The notes under the pieces: generated by a model | Databases searched by the model: none | The model's input: the letters and a program-made list of their open reading frames with translations, nothing else | Told to the model about the DNA's origin: nothing | NCBI RefSeq assembly: GCF_013003915.1 | Contig: NZ_JABAIV010000001.1 | Coordinates: 1 to 64,000, forward strand | From: Telluria aromaticivorans | GTDB taxonomy: Bacteria > Pseudomonadota > Gammaproteobacteria > Burkholderiales > Burkholderiaceae_D | Reading direction: 5' to 3' | DNA: 64,000 nt | Program-made: the position numbers and the translations under genes | Shown here: piece by piece, positions 53,736 through 64,000 of the stretch | Numbering within the stretch: position 1 is the first letter of the stretch | How the letters are laid out: every line of letters starts with the position of its first letter

Positions 53736-54002
53736 ATGAAGACGTCCCGCTTTACCGACAACCAGATCATCGCCATCCTCAAGCAGGCCGAAGCCGGCAG
53801 CCCTGTACCGGAGCTGTACCGCGAGCACGGCATCAGCAATGCCACGTTCTACAAGTGGCGCGCCAAGTACGGCGGCATGGATGCCTCGCTGATGGCACGC
53901 ATGAAGGAGCTGGAGGAGGAAAACCGGCGCCTGAAGAAAATGCATGCCGAGGAGCGCCTCAAGGCCGAGATCGTCGCGGAGGCGTTTGCAAAAAAGTGGT
54001 AG
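53736..54002 (+). CDS. IS3-family transposase OrfA
   Basis: An 88-residue protein with helix-turn-helix KTSRFTDNQIIAILKQAEAG and ELYREHGISNATFYKWRAKY, then the leucine-zipper ELEEENRRLKKM. This is the DNA-binding half of the transposase. Intact, but without OrfB it cannot transpose by itself. Confidence 0.92.
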   Translation: MKTSRFTDNQIIAILKQAEAGSPVPELYREHGISNATFYKWRAKYGGMDASLMARMKELEEENRRLKKMHAEERLKAEIVAEAFAKKW

Positions 54003-55395: not shown

Positions 55396-55640
55396 TTACC
55401 CGTCGCTTCCGATGACTCCTTTGTCACGCCGTTTGCTTCCTACACTACGCCGTGCGGATGGCTCTTGACGAGTACCAGCTTTGGCTCGACTCTTCTCCAG
55501 CTCGTCCCGCAGATGGTTTGCTCGTGCACTGTGCGTAGCTGCTTGACGTATAGCTGCGTCTAGCTGCTCCCGCACTGACTGTAGCTCTGCCCTCTCGCGG
55601 TCACGCTCATTTGCTGATTCACACCCAGCGGCGTGCGACG
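55396..55640 (-). pseudogene. Coiled-coil C-terminal fragment, KfrA-like
   Basis: Reads NERDRERAELQSVREQLDAA, then IRQAATHSARANHLRDELEK and a basic tail to a stop at 55396. The heptad pattern and charge distribution resemble the C-terminal coil of KfrA-type DNA-binding proteins of plasmids and phage-like islands. No N-terminal DNA-binding half is present; upstream the frame runs into the acyl-CoA-dehydrogenase relic, so this is a fusion of two relics. Confidence 0.5.
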
Positions 55641-56020
55641 GCGGCGCCTTGCAGTGGTGAATACGCCCTGTTCCAGCTGCACGGCCGCTGTGGCAAGCTC
55701 CACCATCTGGAGCCGCAGTCCGGGCAGGTTCGCCGGGTCGCGCTGCAGGCGGCCGCGATCGGCACCGTCGGACAGCCCGAGCCAATACGTGTGAAGCGTG
55801 CGTTCCAGTTGTTCAATCTCGGGCAACAGAATCGACGGCGCCGCACCGCCGGCGCGGCGGGCAAAGCGCAGGCTTGCCCGTGCAAGCCCTAAGCCCCAGC
55901 CACACTTGAAGGCGAGGAAAGCCGCCGTAGCATTGGCAGGAAAGTCCTCGCGTCTTTGCCCACGACACCGGCGTGGTCGTCCAGCAAGGCAGCAAGGCGT
56001 TTGCTCAACAGGCTATTCAT
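55640..56020 (-). pseudogene. Acyl-CoA dehydrogenase-like relic, copy A
   Basis: From ATG 56020: MNSLLSKRLAALLDDHAGVV and TFLPMLRRL, matching the start of the intact gene at 61925-63025. At about 55920 the frame changes and jumps to CGWGLGLARASLRFARRAGG, which matches CGLGLGLARASLVAARRHTP about 200 residues further on in the intact copy. It continues LRLQMVELATAAVQLEQ and then loses homology at about 55650. The flavin and substrate core is deleted. Confidence 0.75.
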
Positions 56021-56238
56021 GTTATTCGTGTCGTACCGGTGGCATCGCGCTACAGCGAACCGCACGGCCAGCATCAAGGCGCCGATGAAAACGGCCACTG
56101 CCAGCGCTGAGGCGATGAAGACATAAAGCGGATTGATGTGCCTTCCGCATCGACGTCGAAATCCTTCTTCCGGCGCAGGCCGACGAAGGACCAGGCGATT
56201 GCGGCGAGGGGCTCAAGAAATAAACGTTTCTGTGCCAT
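56021..56238 (-). pseudogene. DUF2970 protein, copy A, frameshifted
   Basis: Starts MAQKRLFLEPLAAIAWSFVG then LRRKKDFDVDAEG, as in the intact copy at 63060-63254. After GAAGGC the frame is shifted by one base: the correct continuation HINPLYVFIASALAVAVFIG is in the next frame and runs without a stop into the relic dehydrogenase. The single membrane helix is therefore not made from the annotated start. Confidence 0.8.
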
Positions 56239-56290
56239 GGCAAACTTCCTGTTATTGCATCACTGGATCTCGGCCGACTATTCTTTGCCA

Positions 56291-56536
56291 TCATGGGAAG
56301 GTCAAGTCCAAACCTAACTTCCTGGCAAGGGCGAAGGTGGCGAGCCCCAGGACAGCGAGCGACAGCACGAAGACTGCGCTCACCTTGCCGGCCGTGAGTA
56401 GCACCGCGTACCTCTCTTTCCCCCCGCCCTTCTCCTTCTTTCCCTGATCGTAATGCCACTTTATAGCGAAGAACATGCCCACGCCTAACACGAGAAACTT
56501 AAAGGTATAAAAGACTGTAGGGAACCATTCCGTCAT
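56291..56536 (-). CDS. Small two-helix membrane protein, copy A (intact)
   Basis: An 81-residue protein: MTEWFPTVFYTFKFLVLGVG with the first helix and FFAIKWHYDQGKK, a basic loop, a second helix KVSAVFVLSLAVLGLATFAL and a RKLGLDLTFP end. A frameshifted paralogue is at 63308-63551. Next to DUF2970, a protein usually encoded in cytochrome oxidase operons of betaproteobacteria, it is probably an oxidase assembly or accessory subunit. Function unknown. Confidence 0.75.
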   Translation of the reverse strand: MTEWFPTVFYTFKFLVLGVGMFFAIKWHYDQGKKEKGGGKERYAVLLTAGKVSAVFVLSLAVLGLATFALARKLGLDLTFP

Positions 56537-56709
56537 TTGGGGTATTCCAGGTTATTACTCAACACTGTCGATCGTAAGGAGCGACACCACAAAACGCTGC
56601 TTTAGCGGCTCCATTCTTGTTCAAACAATCGGAAACGTCAGCGGGCCATGCAACGATTGCCGCGCTGCACGTTCTAAGGCATTCTACTTAAAAGCAATTT
56701 CCATACATT

Positions 56710-56724
56710 GGGACAAAATGTCCC
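56710..56724. promoter_or_regulatory. Palindromic operator over a MocR start codon, copy A
   Basis: GGGACA-AAA-TGTCCC, a perfect inverted repeat in which the ATG of the regulator is included. The 56 bases to 56726 (GTTCT...CATTCTACTTAAAAGC, AATTTCCATACAT and the palindrome) recur at 63691-63746. Confidence 0.7.
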
Positions 56725-56889
56725 AGTCAAAATCCACTCAAGATGATGATTTGACAATCTGGTTGCCGCAGTTGGCAGAGCACTATGGGCCGAGTTTCCT
56801 TCAGGTTGTGGATGCCCTGCAGGCGGCAGTAGCGGACGAAGCGCGGATAGCGGGCGAGCGCTCGCCTCCGCCAGAGACTCAGGTGCGTT
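56718..56889 (+). pseudogene. MocR-type regulator relic, copy A
   Basis: MSQSKSTQDDDLTIWLPQLA and GPSFLQVVDALQAAVADEAR match the N-terminus of the intact regulator at 56890-58290 (MSQLKTMQDY, GPRFLQIADALQQAVSDG). The GntR helix-turn-helix is cut at about residue 55 where the sequence meets the 3' end of the intact gene from the other strand. Only about 57 codons remain. Confidence 0.8.
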
Positions 56890-58290
56890 TCACACAACAG
56901 CACCGTTATATGCGTCAGGCCGCCGGGCCAGCAACTCGGATAGACGCTGCAGGCCCGCCCGTAAGCGTGCACGGTCCCTAATGCTGCCCAGCGAGATCCG
57001 AATCGCGTTCGCAGATTCGCCGTCGGTTGCAAATGCTTCCGCCGGTGCGACCGCTAGCCCCACCCTCTCTGCGGCTTGTGCGAGCTGGTACGACCGCCAG
57101 TATGTCGGCAGCTCGACCCATATATGCAGCCCATCGCCAGATCCGGCATATCGTCCTGCCAGAACGTCGCGAGCCATCTTGTGACGCGCGCGTGCCTCGT
57201 CTCGCACGCCCAGCATCAACGTGTTTGCCGAGCCGTCGAGGATCCACTGGGTAGCCAGCGCAGCGGTCAGGGGGGCAACCATCAATGCGAAAGACCGCAG
57301 GGCCACTAGGAAGCGCTCACGTTCGACCCGGTCACGCACGAGCACGAAAGCAATGCGCAACCCCGGCGTAAGGCATTTCGACAAGGTAGAAATGTAGTAC
57401 ACGTGTTCCGGCGCGTAGGTGGCAATGGGCGGAGGTGGCGACTCGGCGAGCAGCCAGTAAGGGTCGTCCTCGATGATCCGTGCGTTGCAGCGTTTTGCCG
57501 TGGCGGCCAATTCCTGACGCCGCTTTTCTGGCATCGTGACTGTTGTCGGATTCTGTAGTGTCGGGTTGAGGTAGACAAGCTTGGAGTTATGCTGCTGGCA
57601 AGCCTGTTCAAGAGCCTGAGGTAGCATTCCATGCTTGTCCGTTCCGACCGGAATGACACGGCGCCCGAACTGGGTCGCGGCTGCACGCAGCCCGGGATAA
57701 CTCGTCGGTTCCACAAGAACGGCATCGCCGGGCTCGGTCAGCACCAGGATCAGTGCTGCAATCCCTGCTTGTGCGCCAGGACAGACGACTACCTGGTCCG
57801 GATGCATACTTCCAAGCATCGGCCCAATCCACTTGGTCCCGGCTTGGCGGTCGGAGGCGCTGCCTCCTCCTAGATGGTAAGTCATCAGCAGTTCGTTATC
57901 CGCCCGCATCAGCACTTGGGCGAGACCTTGTTTCAGTAGATCGTCGAAATCGACGCCATCCGGCGGGGGCGGTGTGTTCATGCTCAGGTCAAGGGCCGAC
58001 GTCAGCTCTACCTTCGGCGCTGCAACATAGGTACCGCGAGCGCCACGCCCTTCCAGCAGATTCCTGCGCCGGGCTTCATCGTATCCCCGGGTGATCGTCG
58101 TTAGGTCCACATTCAGCTGCGCAGCCAACGCGCGCTGAGGAGGAAGACGATTGCCCGGCTTGAGCAAACCATCGGACACAGCCTGCTGCAATGCATCTGC
58201 TATTTGGAGAAAACGCGGACCGGCGCCCGGTCGTAGCTGCGGCGGCCATGATGGTACGGAATAATCTTGCATGGTTTTCAACTGGGACAT
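56890..58290 (-). CDS. MocR-type transcriptional regulator (GntR HTH plus aminotransferase domain)
   Basis: A 466-residue regulator. Residues 20-90 are the GntR winged helix (LLKPGNRLPPQRALAAQL, LTTITRGYDEARRR). Residues 115-455 have the fold type I aminotransferase shape; the PLP lysine lies in YISTLSKCLTPGLRIAF. It would sense PLP or an amino compound. It is divergent from a cyoA relic, and the start codon lies within a palindrome. Paralogous pieces are at 56718 and 63738. Confidence 0.9.
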   Translation of the reverse strand: MSQLKTMQDYSVPSWPPQLRPGAGPRFLQIADALQQAVSDGLLKPGNRLPPQRALAAQLNVDLTTITRGYDEARRRNLLEGRGARGTYVAAPKVELTSALDLSMNTPPPPDGVDFDDLLKQGLAQVLMRADNELLMTYHLGGGSASDRQAGTKWIGPMLGSMHPDQVVVCPGAQAGIAALILVLTEPGDAVLVEPTSYPGLRAAATQFGRRVIPVGTDKHGMLPQALEQACQQHNSKLVYLNPTLQNPTTVTMPEKRRQELAATAKRCNARIIEDDPYWLLAESPPPPIATYAPEHVYYISTLSKCLTPGLRIAFVLVRDRVERERFLVALRSFALMVAPLTAALATQWILDGSANTLMLGVRDEARARHKMARDVLAGRYAGSGDGLHIWVELPTYWRSYQLAQAAERVGLAVAPAEAFATDGESANAIRISLGSIRDRARLRAGLQRLSELLARRPDAYNGAVV

Positions 58291-58298
58291 TTTGCCCC
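58284..58298. promoter_or_regulatory. Palindromic operator over a MocR start codon, copy B
   Basis: On the minus strand GGGGCA-AAA-TGTCCC with one mismatch, again covering the ATG (58290). CCATACAT and CAATTTCC lie upstream of it, as in the other two copies. Confidence 0.7.
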
Positions 58299-58520
58299 AA
58301 TGTATGGAAATTGTTTCGAGGTAGTATGCCGCAGGAGGCGTGGAAGAACCAGTGGTCTACGACTCCGGAAATGTTTTCTCCCTCCTCATATGTAAGTATG
58401 TGGCGAAACTCGACAGGTTCGCCATGGTTATCCTAGGTAGACCTAATGAAAAACATAAACACTTTGCAGGGCATGACACGCGTTCCTGCTCATGCGGAAC
58501 GGGCAAGTACACTCAACCAC

Positions 58521-58910
58521 ATGAAATCGGTTAAGCGTGTCTGCGCATATGCTATGTTAGCCATGCTGGGCGGTTACGCCATACAACTGATGAATTCGGT
58601 AGGAGATATTAGTGTTCAGGAAAAGACTGTAATCTTCTTCGTGTCCGCCGTAACGCTGCTCCTGGCAATCCCGATCATCGCCCTGAACATATATTTCGTC
58701 TCGCGCCACCATGCCTCCAGCACGACCGCCGAGTACTCTTCAGCGCGTTCGCACTCGATCAAGCAGGAGGCTGTGGCATGGGTCACTCCAATCGTTGTCG
58801 TCGTCATGCTCGCCTTGCTGGGCTGGGGCATAACCCACTCGCTCGACGTATACAAGCCAGTCGATTCGAAGGCGGCGCCTGAGCACGTCGCAACCGTAGC
58901 ACGCGTCTGA
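58521..58910 (+). pseudogene. cyoA: cyoA relic (cytochrome bo3 ubiquinol oxidase subunit II, N-terminal part)
   Basis: 130 codons: MKSVKRVCAYAMLAMLGGYA, a first helix VIFFVSAVTLLLAIPIIALN, then SARSHSIKQEAVAWVTPIVV and HSLDVYKPVDSKA, matching the two-helix anchor of CyoA (SHSNKVEAVVW, HALEPSKPL in E. coli). The cysteine of the lipobox expected after LGG is tyrosine. Translation stops at 58910 where the periplasmic cupredoxin-like domain should begin. A non-functional fragment divergent from the MocR gene. Confidence 0.8.
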
Positions 58911-59159
58911 AGCGGTGCGGCTGGGCGTGGGCCGCGCGGCGAGCAGGAACAATATGCAGCATGCGCTCAGACAGATCGAGCGCGCGCTACGGAGCACGTC
59001 CATGGGCGCGGCTGCCGCGGTATAGCGCGCTATAAATAACGCTGAATGGAGTGCGCTCGCTTTATGACGGTACAGCCGCCAGGTCGCTTGAGTTGCAGTA
59101 TAGTTTGCATCGCTACCGCAGGAAATGCTGACTCACGCATGCGCGGGCCGAAGCTGCTG

Positions 59160-59430
59160 TTATTCGAGCGCAGAATCGGCCCTGCCATGTGCCTGCAGCT
59201 CCAGTTGCATTGTGCTGGACGCCAGTTCGACCATGCTGCGCGTCAAAGCCAGCAAATTACGCGGCCGCTCGCGCGCAGTGCCGCCATCATCGATTCCTGG
59301 TGACAATTCATACCTGAATGCCTCGATCGACGTCTCGAACGATGTGAGATCCGCACGCATGTTAGATGGGGCGGCCTTTAAGCGCCTACCTCGCCGCAGC
59401 CACGCTGGCGCGGGCCAATCCTCGCCTAAA
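59160..59430 (-). pseudogene. Acyl-CoA dehydrogenase-like relic, copy B (C-terminal part)
   Basis: Reads LRRGRRLKAAPSNMRADLTS then FETSIEAFRYELSPGIDDGG and LTRSMVELASSTMQLELQAH, to a stop at 59160. The order matches AARRHTPGQSVLAFEIGALE and LRLNMVGLATSAVQLELQAL of the intact copy. No start and no upstream domain remain. Confidence 0.75.
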
Positions 59431-59706
59431 CAGTGCAGCAGACAATATTTCCATAATGTCAAATATCTACGGGCTGCCGTAGCAGTACGATTGTGCTCGA
59501 GTGAAGAAGACGGATTGTCGTGTTATCCATACTCCTTGGTCAGGTCACTTCTTACAAGATCAGTCTCTTCGGTAGGGCTTCTGGCCTTCACAACAGCGGC
59601 CCGTGATACGGGGTTTTCCCTTAGAGCTGCGTCTGTTTTCCCCACCGTTTCTCGCCGACGCTTGCATAGTCATTCCGCCTCTCGCGGGAGTCATCTGAGG
59701 ACTACC

Positions 59707-59862
59707 ATGTTTGGCGTTACCCCTCTAGAACTAGCGCGCATCCAGTTCGGCTTCACCTTCACCTTCCACATCGTCTTCCCAGCTATCACCGTCGGTTTGG
59801 CCAGTTTTTTGATGGTGCTTGAAGCTTGCTGGCTTCGCACCCGGAAGGCTGTCTACCGCGAT
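59707..59862 (+). pseudogene. cydA: cydA relic (cytochrome bd oxidase subunit I, first 52 codons)
   Basis: MFGVTPLELARIQFGFTFTF then HIVFPAITVGLASFLMVLEA and KAVYRD: the start of CydA with the heme-ligand histidine region HIVFPA. GAGGACTACC gives an RBS. At about 59862 it is cut and joined to a minus-strand cytochrome fragment. Confidence 0.85.
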
Positions 59863-60012
59863 GGCGGCGGCATCCGCATCCGCTATCGGCACGGACGGCT
59901 GGTTACGGCCGGGCTCGACAACGAATTCAACCAACACGGGGATCAGGGAAACCAGCAGCGCCAGGAGTAGCACCCCGGCGCCCGCGCGCTTGACGTAGAA
60001 AGTTGCTTTCAA
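59863..60012 (-). pseudogene. Membrane-anchored cytochrome c fragment
   Basis: From a TTG that overlaps the stop of the preceding cytochrome gene (TTGA): KATFYVKRAGAGVLLLALLV then SLIPVLVEFVVEPGRNQPSV and PIADADAAAIA. An N-terminal membrane anchor followed by the lead-in typical of c-type cytochromes (before a CxxCH). It is cut at the cydA relic before any heme motif, so its identity is inferred. Confidence 0.5.
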
Positions 60013-60689
60013 TGTGGGGCACTCCCGCACGGCACCGGCAGTTTGACGGCGCCGGCGGGAACCGCCGTCATATCCTGTGGCGGTGGCTGTGCGGCAAGCC
60101 ACGATGTGACGGCCTCGATGTCAGCTGGCGTGAGACGGCGGCTGATGTCACCCATGCAGTCAGGTTGTGCGGCCCGGCGCGTACCGGCTTTCCAGGAACC
60201 GAACTGGGCATTCATGTAGTCGTGCGGCAGCCCGACCAGGCTGGAAATCGCGGGCAACATGCCGGTCAGCCTTTCGCCGTGGCATAAAGCGCAGGCTGGA
60301 AGTTGCCGGGCACGGTCTCCGTCGAAGACGAGCGCCCGCCCCAGGGCCGGGCGCGCTCCCTGCGCGGTGCTTTGCGGCGCGGATACGGAAGGCGCACCGC
60401 AGCAAAGTAAGTCGCCAGTTCCATGAGATAGGCCTCGGACAGGTTGGACACCATGTGAGACATGGCGGGATGCTGCCGGCGGCCATCGCGAAAGTTGAGC
60501 AGCTGGTTGTACAGGTATCCCGCCGGCTTCCCTGCGATCCTTGGAAAGTAGCCGTCGCGCGTTGCCCTGCCCTCTTTGCCGTGGCAGGCGGCGCACGCCA
60601 GGGCGCGCTGTGCGGTCGTATCCGGGACCGCGCGCGTTCTGCGCCAACGAGAATGGCGACGTGCAAAGCACGATGCTGGCCACTAACAC
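60009..60689 (-). pseudogene. Diheme cytochrome c with two frameshifts
   Basis: A signal-like start (VASIVLCTSPFSLAQ) in one frame; then CAACHGKEGRATRDGYFPRI through QHPAMSHMVSNLSEAYLMEL in the next frame; then RALVFDGDRARQLPACALCH through LTPADIEAVTSWLAAQPP in the first frame again. The two shifts are at about 60600 and 60385 and cancel each other. Both heme motifs (CAACH, CALCH) survive but are in different frames. A periplasmic electron carrier of the c4/c5 kind in its intact state. Confidence 0.8.
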
Positions 60690-60797
60690 CGCACCCCACG
60701 ACAGCTGGAGCCGTGAGGGCGGGAACAGCGCGATTCCGCCTGAGTTCTAACCTCCGGTCCCTGTACCCCCCCAGTGCCGGAATCGGGACGCAGAAGC

Positions 60798-61268
60798 TTA
60801 CTTCGGCAGTCCGCCCGAGGCGGCTGGTATCGCCTCCGAATTCAAGGCACGGACTGGCGCCCGGATCTCGACCGTTTCCCTGCGCTGATCAGGGCCCTCA
60901 AACACCAATTTCAGCGGTACGCTGTGTCCTACCCTTATCTGCTGGCGCAAGTTAAGAAGCATCACGTGGTAGCTGCCCGGCTTGAGCTCAACCGTCCTCC
61001 CGGCTGGCAGGCGGATAGCCGGCACTTGTCGCATCCGCATGATGTCGTCCTGCATTGTCATCTCGTGGATCTCGACATCGGGCGTCACGGGCGACTCCAC
61101 CTGGATCAGTGCGCTGCCATTTGCGGACTGCAGCTGCATGAAGGCACCCGTTGCCTTCTGATGCGGCACGGTTGCGCGCACCCATGCATTCGCGACAGTG
61201 GTCTGGCCTTGCGCACTCCCAGCCAGGAGCAAGACGGCGGCGAGTGCCAGGCAAACTATGTATTTCAT
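60798..61268 (-). CDS. Copper chaperone PCu(A)C
   Basis: A 156-residue periplasmic protein with a signal peptide (residues 1-22). The copper motif is seen in EIHEMTMQDDIMRM and KPGSYHVML (two His and several Met). It delivers Cu(I) to the CuA site or, with SCO, to CuB of heme-copper oxidases. It follows the SCO gene after 23 bases, an arrangement seen in oxidase-assembly clusters. Confidence 0.92.
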   Translation of the reverse strand: MKYIVCLALAAVLLLAGSAQGQTTVANAWVRATVPHQKATGAFMQLQSANGSALIQVESPVTPDVEIHEMTMQDDIMRMRQVPAIRLPAGRTVELKPGSYHVMLLNLRQQIRVGHSVPLKLVFEGPDQRRETVEIRAPVRALNSEAIPAASGGLPK

Positions 61269-61291
61269 GGTGATTTTCCTCTGTTATGCCT

Positions 61292-61894
61292 TCAGGCAGA
61301 GCGCAAAATATTACGCAGGTCTGCTGCGCACGCGTCCGCGCTCTGTGAGTGAAGAAACTTGAGCCGTAGCTTGCCCCGCGGGTCGTACACATAGCTCACC
61401 GAAGTGTGGTCCATGCTGTAGGACGCACCTGTAGGGACTTTCTTGTAGATGAGATTGAACTCCTGGGCCATCTGCGCCAGGCCGGCAAGGTCGCTATACA
61501 AGGCCAGGAAGCTGGGATCGAAGGCTGCTGTATAGGCTTTCAGGACCTCGGGCGTATCGCGCTCCGGATCGACAGTGACGAACAGGACCTGGAGTTGCCC
61601 CCCGTCCTCACCGAGCAAGCGTTTGATGTCGACCGCGCGGGCCAGCGCGGTCGGGCACACGTCGGGGCATTGGGTGTAGCCGAAGAACAGCAGGATTGCC
61701 TGGCCTTTGAAAGCCGCCAGTGTTCGCTTTCTCCCGTCCGGGTCGGTCAGCCGAAAATCGCGCCCATATGTGGCGCCGGTGACGTTGGTTCCGTGAAACC
61801 GCACCATTCCGTCCTTTGTACATCCAGCAAGGCCCAGCAAGCCCAGAGCAGCGCTGGCCCGAAGGAAGGTACGGCGTGACAACAAACTCGTCAT
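61292..61894 (-). CDS. SCO1/SenC family copper chaperone
   Basis: A 200-residue exported protein with a lipobox (LAGC, about residues 22-25). The thioredoxin fold has FFGYTQCPDVCPTALA with the CxxxC copper site, VDPERDTPEVL, and the third ligand histidine in MDHTSVSYVYD. It loads copper into cytochrome oxidase subunit II. Upstream on the same strand is the acyl-CoA-dehydrogenase-like gene, 30 bases away. Confidence 0.93.
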   Translation of the reverse strand: MTSLLSRRTFLRASAALGLLGLAGCTKDGMVRFHGTNVTGATYGRDFRLTDPDGRKRTLAAFKGQAILLFFGYTQCPDVCPTALARAVDIKRLLGEDGGQLQVLFVTVDPERDTPEVLKAYTAAFDPSFLALYSDLAGLAQMAQEFNLIYKKVPTGASYSMDHTSVSYVYDPRGKLRLKFLHSQSADACAADLRNILRSA

Positions 61895-61924
61895 TTCGAA
61901 AACTCCTCGATAACATGTAGGTGA

Positions 61925-63025
61925 TTAGATAGGCAAGTTGTCAGGCGAAGGCGAAACTGAGGCCGGCCCCAACTTGGCCAGCTCGGTCTTCAACTGCACG
62001 AGGCTGGGGGTGAGGATCGGCAGGAAGGCGGCCTCACGCATGCGACGCGCGAAACCACTGCCCGCGCTGCGGTCGTAGGCCCGGGCGCCCAGCGCCTGGA
62101 GCTCAAGCTGCACCGCCGATGTCGCAAGCCCGACCATGTTGAGGCGCAGGTCGAACAGCGCCGTAGGATTCGCCTCTAGCCAGCCCCCGTCCAGCGCCAC
62201 TGACAGGGTGCGCCAGAATTCTTCCGCAGTATCCTCGAGCGCACCAATTTCGAAAGCGAGAACCGACTGGCCGGGGGTGTGCCGACGTGCGGCCACCAGG
62301 CTGGCCCGCGCAAGACCGAGCCCGAGTCCGCACTGGATTGCCAGCATCATCGGGCGCAATGCGGGTAAAAAGACTTTCGCGTGCGGATGTAACAGCCAAT
62401 GCTCCGTCAACGGGACATTCTCGAAGCGCAACGATGCGGTATTGGTTGCGCGCAATCCCAGCAAGTCCTGGTCGTCTCCCCGCCACACGCCTGCGGCATC
62501 GTTTGGTACGGCGAAGATCGCCGGGCTCCCGCTGGCGGGATTAATGGCGGCGATTGCCGCCACGAACCCACCCCTGCAAAGGTTCGTTGCCCATGGAACG
62601 GTCCCGTTCAGAACGCTGCCTTCGGCAGTCGACGTGCACTGCGCATGAAGCTGGTCGAGCCCGCTCAATGAGCGAATCGCATTCGACAACCCCGGGGCGC
62701 CGGCTGTGGCCCCATTCAACAGCGACGGCAACAGCTTCCGGACTAGGTCATGGTTCGGGCTGCGCAGCAGGCATTCGATCGTTGCGCGCTGGGCCCAGAA
62801 CACGAATCCGGCTGCCAGCGAATGTTCGGCGAGCGCCGCTGCAAGCGCAACGGCAGTGCTGGCCGCGCCGCCTGCTCCACCCTGCGCGACGGGGACCGCA
62901 GCCCCGAACACCCCGCTTGCCGCGAGCGTCGCGAGTAACTGGTCCGCTTGGGTATGGTCGCTGTCGAGTGCATCCGCTTGTGAGTCCAGCCAAGCGGCCA
63001 GCGTATCGTCGACTTGGTTCAGCAT
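61925..63025 (-). CDS. Acyl-CoA dehydrogenase-like protein (intact copy)
   Basis: A 366-residue protein with the domain order of acyl-CoA dehydrogenases: an N-terminal helical part (TLAAWLDSQADAL), VPVAQGGAGG, a middle beta part (GTVPWATNLCRG, LGLRATNTASLRFENVPL) and C-terminal helices (CGLGLGLARASLVAARR). I do not see the usual catalytic glutamate context, so substrate and activity are unclear. The start at 63025 is chosen; TTG at 63073 would overlap DUF2970. It lies between DUF2970 and SCO, odd company for a beta-oxidation enzyme; broken copies are at 55640 and 59160. Confidence 0.82.
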   Translation of the reverse strand: MLNQVDDTLAAWLDSQADALDSDHTQADQLLATLAASGVFGAAVPVAQGGAGGAASTAVALAAALAEHSLAAGFVFWAQRATIECLLRSPNHDLVRKLLPSLLNGATAGAPGLSNAIRSLSGLDQLHAQCTSTAEGSVLNGTVPWATNLCRGGFVAAIAAINPASGSPAIFAVPNDAAGVWRGDDQDLLGLRATNTASLRFENVPLTEHWLLHPHAKVFLPALRPMMLAIQCGLGLGLARASLVAARRHTPGQSVLAFEIGALEDTAEEFWRTLSVALDGGWLEANPTALFDLRLNMVGLATSAVQLELQALGARAYDRSAGSGFARRMREAAFLPILTPSLVQLKTELAKLGPASVSPSPDNLPI

Positions 63026-63059
63026 AGTGATCCGGACAAGGTCCGAGCCTCCGCGTGGC

Positions 63060-63254
63060 TCATGAGATCGCAATCTGCACGGCGAACATCAGGATGCCGA
63101 TAAAGATTGCGAGTCCGATGAAGGCTGCGAGCAAGACGTACAAGGGATTGAACGCCCCTTCGGCATCGACGTCGAAGTCCTTCTTGCGCCGCAGGCCGAC
63201 GAAGCCCCAGCCAATCGCTTTCAGAGTTGCGGGAAAAGACCGTTTATTCTTCAC
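63060..63254 (-). CDS. DUF2970 domain membrane protein (intact copy)
   Basis: A 64-residue protein: KAIGWGFVGLRRKKDFDVDA, then EGAFNPLYVLLAAFIGLAIF and a membrane helix. DUF2970 genes are usually found in the ctaC-ctaD-ctaG-ctaE region of betaproteobacteria, so a role in cytochrome oxidase assembly is likely but unproven. The paralogue at 56021-56238 is frameshifted. Confidence 0.85.
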   Translation of the reverse strand: MKNKRSFPATLKAIGWGFVGLRRKKDFDVDAEGAFNPLYVLLAAFIGLAIFIGILMFAVQIAIS

Positions 63255-63307
63255 TTTAATGCTCCTTGCCTATCGGGGCGCCACTCGAATCCAGCGGTAA
63301 TTTGCCA

Positions 63308-63551
63308 TCATGGTAAGGTCAAGTCCAAACCGAGCTTCCTTGCAAGGACGAAGGTGACGAGCACCAGGCCCAGCAGCGTAGGCACGAAGACTGCGTCCAC
63401 CTTGCCAGCCGCGATGAGCACCGCGCGCTTCTCCTGCTCTTCGCCTTGATTTTCTGCCTTGATCGTAATGCCACTTGATGGCGAAGAACATGCCGATTCC
63501 TAACGCGACAACCTTGAACGTACCAGCGACTATAGGGAACCAATCGATCAT
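63308..63551 (-). pseudogene. Small two-helix membrane protein, copy C (frameshifted)
   Basis: MIDWFPIVAGTFKVVALGIG then MFFAIKWHYDQGRK in the first frame; a two-base deletion near 63450 puts the rest, EEQEKRAVLIAAGKVDAVFV then LVTFVLARKLGLDLTLP, in another frame ending at 63308. The total is 244 bases against 246 in the intact copy A (56291-56536). Confidence 0.8.
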
Positions 63552-63729
63552 TTTGCGGATTTCCAGGCGATTACTTGACACTATTCATTGAGCAGAGTAC
63601 TGCCTCAAAACGCTGCTTCCGCCGCTTCATTTTTTGTTGAAAGCATCGGAAATTGCAGCGGAATGCTATGCAAGTTTAGTCTTGCTTTACGTTCTGACGC
63701 ATTCTACTTAAAAGCAATTTCCATACATC

Positions 63730-63744
63730 GAGACAAAATGTCCC
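63730..63744. promoter_or_regulatory. Palindromic operator over a MocR start codon, copy C
   Basis: GAGACA-AAA-TGTCCC with one mismatch, covering the ATG at 63738, in the same sequence context as copy A. Confidence 0.7.
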
Positions 63745-64000
63745 AGTTGAAATCCATGCAAGATAATCATGATTTGCCAATCTGGTTGCCGCGGTTGTCG
63801 GTGCATGGGGGACCGCGTTTTCTGCAGATTGCGGATGCCCTGCAGGCCGCGCTTGCGGATGAATCACTGAATCCAGCGGCCGCCTGCCTACGCAGCGTCA
63901 GGTCGCTGCACGGCTCGATGTAGACTTAACGACCGTTATCCGTGCCTATGACGAAGCGCGGCGCCGCCATTTGCTGGAAGGACGCGGGCCCGCGGTACCT
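63738..64000 (+). pseudogene. MocR-type regulator, copy C, frameshifted and cut by the window edge
   Basis: MSQLKSMQDNHDLPIWLPRL then GPRFLQIADALQAALADESL, then a frameshift at about 63880: the true continuation RLPTQRQVAARLDVDLTTVI and RAYDEARRRHLLEGRG is in another frame and runs to the end of the window. Whether the rest of the gene exists cannot be seen. Confidence 0.75.

Follow-up and report, generated by a model that had tools for sequence, protein, structure and literature searches.

The window analysed here is a 64,000-nt stretch of Telluria aromaticivorans (contig NZ_JABAIV010000001.1, C1 below; C1 coordinates beyond 64,000 lie on the same contig past the window end), and the locus in question, in its last part, has a conserved core made up of a MocR-type regulator, an operator over the start codon of the regulator gene, and a two-helix membrane protein. 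Two blocks of genes are arranged around this core. The upper block, which reads on the minus strand from 63.7 kb, comprises an operator, a frameshifted two-helix gene, a DUF2970 gene, an acyl-CoA dehydrogenase (ACAD)-like gene, SCO and PCuAC genes and a frameshifted cytochrome c gene, with gaps of 23–56 bp as far as PCuAC; the lower block has the order of operator, intact two-helix gene, frameshifted DUF2970 gene and ACAD fragment. Between the blocks are found a 51-residue MocR fragment, the intact MocR gene and, divergent from the latter, a CyoA-like gene of 154 codons. The initial annotation held that the upper block was intact and the lower one broken, but the damage is distributed over both: the upper two-helix and MocR genes are broken, with DUF2970 and the ACAD-like gene intact, and in the lower part the two-helix gene and MocR are intact, with DUF2970 and ACAD broken.

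The intact regulator (56890..58290, minus strand, 466 aa) is MocR-like in both of its parts, having an N-terminal GntR winged helix (PF00392, 46.5 bits against a cut-off of 27) and a C-terminal aminotransferase-like domain (Aminotran_1_2, PF00155, 68.2 bits against 19.7), and it does not reach the NCBIfam cut-off for EhuR, the ectoine MocR (367.8 vs 480 bits). An SxSK-like lysine motif and an EDD motif are visible in the sequence, and on these motifs read by eye the protein may bind pyridoxal phosphate (PLP) and DNA. It is the sole match at E ≤ 1e-120 in its own genome, and the ratio of nonsynonymous to synonymous rates (dN/dS, throughout from plain Nei-Gojobori pairs) is 0.14–0.15 against two relatives. 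Two other MocR starts in the window are remnants: a 5' fragment covering residues 1–51 at 56718..56870 on the plus strand (tblastn 51%, E 5e-9), with the same arrangement in genome G544, and the broken start of the upper block, detected by tblastn on the plus strand at 63738..64000 and running to about C1:64953 past the window, with frame changes, one stop and about 50 residues missing. In the genus, MocR was found in 42 of 62 genomes at the above threshold. We opened 59 MocR loci in 58 other genomes, namely 42 genus loci, that is every genus match besides the window's, and 17 of the wider family, for which 20 of 37 matches were opened; fetched loci here and below reach about 1.5 kb per side, so distant partners may be missed, and their genes were called by a simple codon-model script.

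All three MocR starts, at 58290 (minus), 63738 (plus) and 56718 (plus), have the operator in common. The copy at 58288..58313 (minus strand) overlaps the start codon of the intact MocR and faces the CyoA-like gene, and it is recognized by the pattern with 1 mismatch and by a conserved upstream alignment; those at 56695..56720, belonging to the lower two-helix gene, and at 63715..63740, belonging to the upper block, both on the plus strand, have 0 mismatches. A conserved stretch that begins about 35 bp before the MocR gene and reaches into its start was found with at most 4 mismatches in 54 of 59 upstream regions (56 loci plus the 3 window copies). The 26-base pattern occurs at 55 sites in 48 of the 62 genus genomes, and a reversed-pattern control gave 0/62. 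When further sites were opened, a divergent two-helix gene was present in 14/14 regions, 8 of them from genomes without MocR at E ≤ 1e-120. Against one intact MocR, the genome of T. aromaticivorans itself has four operator sites, of which three lie in the window. The fourth, at C1:166.5 kb, belongs to a further intact two-helix gene, which is located outside the window at C1:166485-166863 together with a MocR fragment.

The lower two-helix protein (56291..56536, minus strand) is intact, has 81 aa and scores 140 bits to our family model with the invariant KWHYDQG motif; the upper gene (63311..63551, minus strand) is in two pieces and two frames, shifted near 63450. Members in the family to which the host of the window belongs are 77–82 aa long, and 17 aligned members keep an invariant core around KWHYDQG. 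The family model finds the gene in 60 of 62 genus genomes and in 21 of 399 genomes drawn from the order, some of these matches being weak and partial. At the opened MocR loci, it is divergent from MocR in 48/59, 67–550 bp off the MocR start, and lies downstream on the same strand in 3 more; it was not found at the remaining 8/59, among which is G548, where the assembly breaks and the two-helix gene stands at the end of another contig. The divergent pair is also present in Diaphorobacter sp. HDW4B and Comamonas antarctica; Comamonas endophytica fits the arrangement by coordinates only, and Azospirillum sp. B510 has a 46-codon form downstream of a MocR. Alphaproteobacterial plasmids carry short one-helix forms with a FAIKWHYDQ-type motif, and in two Azospirillum brasilense records a DUF983 gene is located just upstream of such a form. 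Assignment to a known family was tried and given up: NCBIfam gave 0 matches for the window protein, and Pfam gave weak and scattered matches to 30 families over the 17 members, the best being DUF5671 in 8/17 (E 3.7e-5). No literature was found on the KWHYDQ motif in a search without most subscription papers, whose negative outcome is therefore weak. The two-helix protein is widespread, and not named by the literature or family searches made.

The gene facing the intact MocR (58446..58910, plus strand) encodes the membrane hairpin of CyoA and ends before the C-terminal periplasmic domain, so it lacks the C-terminal half of CyoA and is not a full-length subunit II; it matches positions 4–121 of 226 in TIGR01433 (E 9e-26, 90.6 bits against a cut-off of 266.2) and is 45% identical to residues 3–107 of a MocR-linked Paraburkholderia CyoA. 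The initial annotation had correctly placed a regulator divergent from a cyoA-like gene, but its designation as a relic does not stand, since the reading frame is unbroken in three genomes and stops at the same point in each: homologues were found in two others (154 and 153 codons), G544 (71%) and G537 (50%). In a rough substitution-only neutral simulation, based on a star tree and assumed branch lengths, the value for the hairpin staying open in three lineages was 0.014.

The source of this arrangement is indicated by relatives outside the genus. In 5/5 Paraburkholderia and Cupriavidus loci opened, a homologous MocR (49–55%) is divergent from a complete cyoABCD, and CyoA lies beside MocR in 10/11 Cupriavidus/Paraburkholderia records among 20 listed plasmid matches (by coordinates and opened loci, the 11th being unchecked). 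The operator core CATRCTA-N14-CCATACA, which was defined post hoc on sequences already inspected, is exact in 4/5 of these cyo loci, the fifth, that of C. metallidurans CH34, having one mismatch; within the window's own family it is exact in 31/59 upstream regions and has at most one mismatch in 55/59, and 0 exact matches occur in 1.21 million strand-bases of other loci. The closest known counterparts are the MocR-cyoABCD loci of Paraburkholderia largidicola and C. metallidurans CH34, which resemble the window in MocR, divergence and operator core; they keep the whole oxidase operon, whereas the window has only the CyoA hairpin, and its family mostly the two-helix gene. In that family the homologous MocR and the operator core face the two-helix protein, single cyo parts (CyoA hairpin, CyoC/CyoD or CyoD), or DUF2970 with an ACAD-like gene. 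The hairpin stands beside MocR in the window, G544 and G537, with a 37-residue fragment in G024; pieces of CyoC and CyoD do so at a second G544 locus, and a CyoD-like protein in G557 and G080, the one of G557 having no Pfam match and being identified from BLAST (E 3e-10). Literature searches on MocR with cyoA, on MocR-family cyoABCD and on MocR in Oxalobacteraceae found nothing relevant, a weak absence because most subscription papers were outside the search; one line of PMC5320631 already attributes the regulation of cytochromes and cytochrome oxidases to MocR factors.

The locus is probably a remodelled and partly decaying regulon, a further form of MocR-controlled oxidase loci. We consider it fairly probable that a cytochrome-o (cyo) regulon under MocR control once stood here and that the region is what remodelling has left of it, with a function that we infer and with a cargo that has been dismantled and swapped. 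By this proposal, MocR would bind the four operators of this genome and autoregulate, and would switch the CyoA hairpin and the two-helix genes; from the operator at 63.7 kb it would also control the run of DUF2970, ACAD, SCO and PCuAC genes. A terminal oxidase would be adapted by the small membrane proteins, acting as its accessory or assembly subunits, and SCO and PCuAC would have joined the upper operon locally, coming under MocR in this genome only. The signal would probably be a PLP-linked cue or one of respiratory inhibition, by analogy with MpaR, a MocR-type regulator of Pseudomonas aeruginosa through which cyanide induces the orphan oxidase subunit CcoN4 (PMC10790758). The likeness, drawn from description and not from the MpaR sequence, lies in the pairing of a MocR-type regulator with an adjacent orphan subunit of a terminal oxidase; MpaR-ccoN4 differs in having a cbb3-type subunit and another palindromic motif (ATCTGAT). 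Cyanide induction, as in MpaR/CcoN4, may by this analogy apply to the window system. A bolder version can be offered only tentatively: the KWHYDQG protein would be a subunit of haem-copper oxidases, accessory or for assembly, that has escaped recognition, and across a bacterial family the ex-cyo MocR would have taken over the switching of this protein and of left-over oxidase parts, as a stripped-down MpaR-like respiratory stress response.

Several observations weigh against the cyo-remnant interpretation. Single cyo parts are a minority among MocR loci, and the hairpin itself has a dN/dS of 0.57–0.72, meaning weak constraint. MocR was not found in 20/62 genus genomes at E ≤ 1e-120, and at two distant MocR loci, G123 (62%) and G142 (55%), none of the parts was seen. 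The two-helix gene does not depend on MocR and its operator, because 10 of the 12 genus genomes lacking both keep it. The upper operon may be dying, because its two-helix and MocR genes are broken. The region also holds a 44-residue N-terminal CydA fragment overlooked earlier (59731..59862, plus strand; PF01654, E 1e-11; 45.2 bits). A MocR-cydA pairing was rejected: from 67 cydA matches, 30 intact loci were opened, and none had genes of the window in its flanks of about 1.5 kb.

The distribution of the two-helix gene, present in 60/62 genomes vs 42/62 for MocR, also leads to a different view, in which this protein has no link with respiration and is the true, ancient partner; MocR and its operator would be a mobile regulatory cassette that came to lie next to it, and the cyo, cyd and SCO pieces would be what a degraded hotspot left behind. 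The one-helix forms on alphaproteobacterial plasmids occur without MocR, broken genes and a transposase fragment lie nearby, G+C content is 0.55–0.62 at 52–64 kb vs 0.63, and YczR-YczE offers a precedent of a MocR divergent from an uncharacterised membrane protein (PMC4944035). YczE carries DUF161, which is not among the best 25 of the 30 weakly matching Pfam families of the 17 two-helix proteins. We regard this alternative as rather doubtful, since in Burkholderiaceae regulators of this MocR family, with this operator core, are set opposite a complete cyoABCD operon, and several independent cyo parts adjoin MocR in the window's family. If the cyo-remnant interpretation holds, a regulator and its operator have outlived the enzyme operon that homologues still face and have taken on new cargo, and the control of terminal oxidases by MocR regulators, known from MpaR, would also cover cyo operons in Burkholderiaceae. 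The locus further draws attention to a small membrane protein that lacks annotation and is carried by nearly every genome of one genus.

Direct repeats with 75–81% DNA identity, spaced by about 7.02 kb, span the leader, two-helix and DUF2970 regions, and the repeated block described in the initial annotation is real in this respect; it is neither a recent copy nor a conserved oxidase-assembly unit. The lower ACAD-like fragment (55671..55916, minus strand; residues 231–311, E 1e-14) and the lower DUF2970 gene (56048..56229, minus strand; in two pieces and different frames, E 1e-14) share 80% identity with the corresponding pair of G533 vs 54% and 62% with the upper copy. Because these relics are closer to another genome than to the upper block, recent block duplication was rejected. 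A third ACAD-like fragment (59087..59411, minus strand; two pieces, E 6e-8) is of another ACAD type, nearest to that of G575 (45%). The DNA in common, including the operator from which copying of whole blocks had been concluded, is therefore a sign of conserved function or of old paralogy, and not of a duplication in recent times. That the three ACAD pieces, including the full-length one at 61928–63034, are related was borne out.

SCO and PCuAC are a separate pair. The PCuAC copper chaperone (60798..61268, minus strand; PF04314, E 2e-34, 118 bits) and SCO1/SenC with a TAT-type start (61292..61894, minus strand; PF02630, E 3e-41, 140.8 bits) pass their gathering scores, which confirms their identities as first proposed, as is also the case for DUF2970; the dN/dS of SCO is 0.21 vs G535. 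PCuAC lies close by in 11 of 12 genomes in which window-type SCO was opened, and DUF2946 was confirmed beside the pair in G535, as in the DUF2946-SCO-PCuAC copper operons of PMC9426467; unlike these, the window pair sits behind DUF2970-ACAD and a MocR operator. The broken cytochrome c proposed earlier is confirmed as a frameshifted gene at 60015..60628 (minus strand), 51–52% identical in two frames to one of the two cytochrome c genes downstream of MocR in G113.

It had been suggested that MocR, the two-helix protein, DUF2970, ACAD, SCO and PCuAC constitute one conserved oxidase-assembly system. The tight operon-like spacing of the upper block, the DUF2970-ACAD pair in G557 and G533, and the position of SCO-PCuAC, which has a ctaB paralogue nearby in five genomes and cyoABCD in one (G578), speak for it, but SCO or PCuAC occurs in the flanks of 0/59 MocR loci and MocR beside 0/12 window-type SCO loci, so that SCO-PCuAC as MocR cargo elsewhere was rejected and the single system is largely refuted and very improbable. 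What survives of the expected co-occurrence is the recurrence of the MocR/two-helix block and of DUF2970-ACAD in those two genomes, and what survives of the respiratory link is the facing of complete cyoABCD by MocR, not the whole set as one unit. In G578, SCO, PCuAC, a TonB-type receptor and cyoABCD form a single run.

The upper DUF2970 protein (63060..63254, minus strand, 64 aa) is intact, passes the Pfam gathering score (PF11174, 39.4 vs 27 bits) and has a dN/dS of 0.20–0.26. It is of the same Pfam family as DUF2970 of aa3 oxidase operons (the Bordetella cta operon, PMC11257404, and C3:64103 in the own genome, whose cox-operon copy is 43% identical), but belongs to a separate, weaker-scoring second type (38–50 bits vs 75–89) seen in 5/62 genus genomes. 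Four of these have MocR and/or ACAD as its neighbour (MocR: window, G557, G581; ACAD: window, G557, G533), and in G583 it stands alone. DUF2970-ACAD is a real but rare pair, found in the window and in 2/61 other genus genomes (G557 and G533).

The intact ACAD-like protein (61925..63025, minus strand, 366 aa) scores 32.8 bits in Pfam for the N-terminal domain (cut-off 22.9) and 21.7 for the middle domain, below its cut-off of 33.3. Its predicted structure (pLDDT 87.9, pTM 0.89) has the ACAD fold assumed earlier, with TM 0.81–0.84 to isovaleryl-CoA dehydrogenase and DszC among the top folds, and 49/50 homologues keep a tryptophan and 50/50 an asparagine in the middle domain. A catalytic base appears to be missing: the window has M at the position aligned to the Glu of isovaleryl-CoA dehydrogenase, none of 50 homologues has an acid there, and at the second, C-terminal site, mapped by eye alignment, 49 have T/S-P and one has a gap. 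We take these two Glu sites to be the catalytic-base positions of acyl-CoA dehydrogenases, and the protein is probably a flavoprotein other than a classical acyl-CoA dehydrogenase. The best NCBIfam model, SfnB (TIGR04022), is far from reached (50.4 vs 430.9 bits), and the likeness to SfnB-type oxidoreductases and DszC is one of fold. An ACAD9-like role in complex I was discarded, ACAD9 being merely one of 30 generic ACAD matches.

Relatives of 53–58% identity occur in 12 other genus genomes, of which 9 have no neighbours of the window (two of these on contigs below 5 kb); of the others, that of G557 has both MocR and DUF2970 beside it, that of G533 has DUF2970, and that of G575 lies just upstream of MocR. 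More distant relatives (40–50%) lie, in eight gene lists, in a cluster of AraC regulator, CMD, ACAD, ABC ATPase, NMT1-type binding protein and permease, for which Pfam labels were checked in one, Cupriavidus plantarum. With the 43–50% relatives in such a transporter cluster and those 9/12 genus loci, the respiratory role proposed at first for the ACAD-like protein is not upheld, and it finds no independent support among the neighbourhoods opened. One could regard the upper block as a copper/oxidase-maturation operon brought under MocR by local fusion, with the ACAD-like flavoprotein a passenger from a nutrient-scavenging cluster; the independence of the SCO-PCuAC pair, its DUF2946 neighbour in G535 and the C. 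plantarum cluster agree with this, but the ACAD is no passenger of the window locus alone, because its adjacency to DUF2970 recurs without SCO, and we judge such a fusion quite unlikely.

The transposase fragment mentioned above (HTH_Tnp_1) is located at 53736-54002, close to the decayed region, and the lowered G+C content was taken in 2-kb steps against the window mean. Past the window, two near-identical genes of 124 aa, which we presume by eye to be DsrE-like, are found at C1:72072-72446 and C1:75719-76093 with about 3.6 kb between them.

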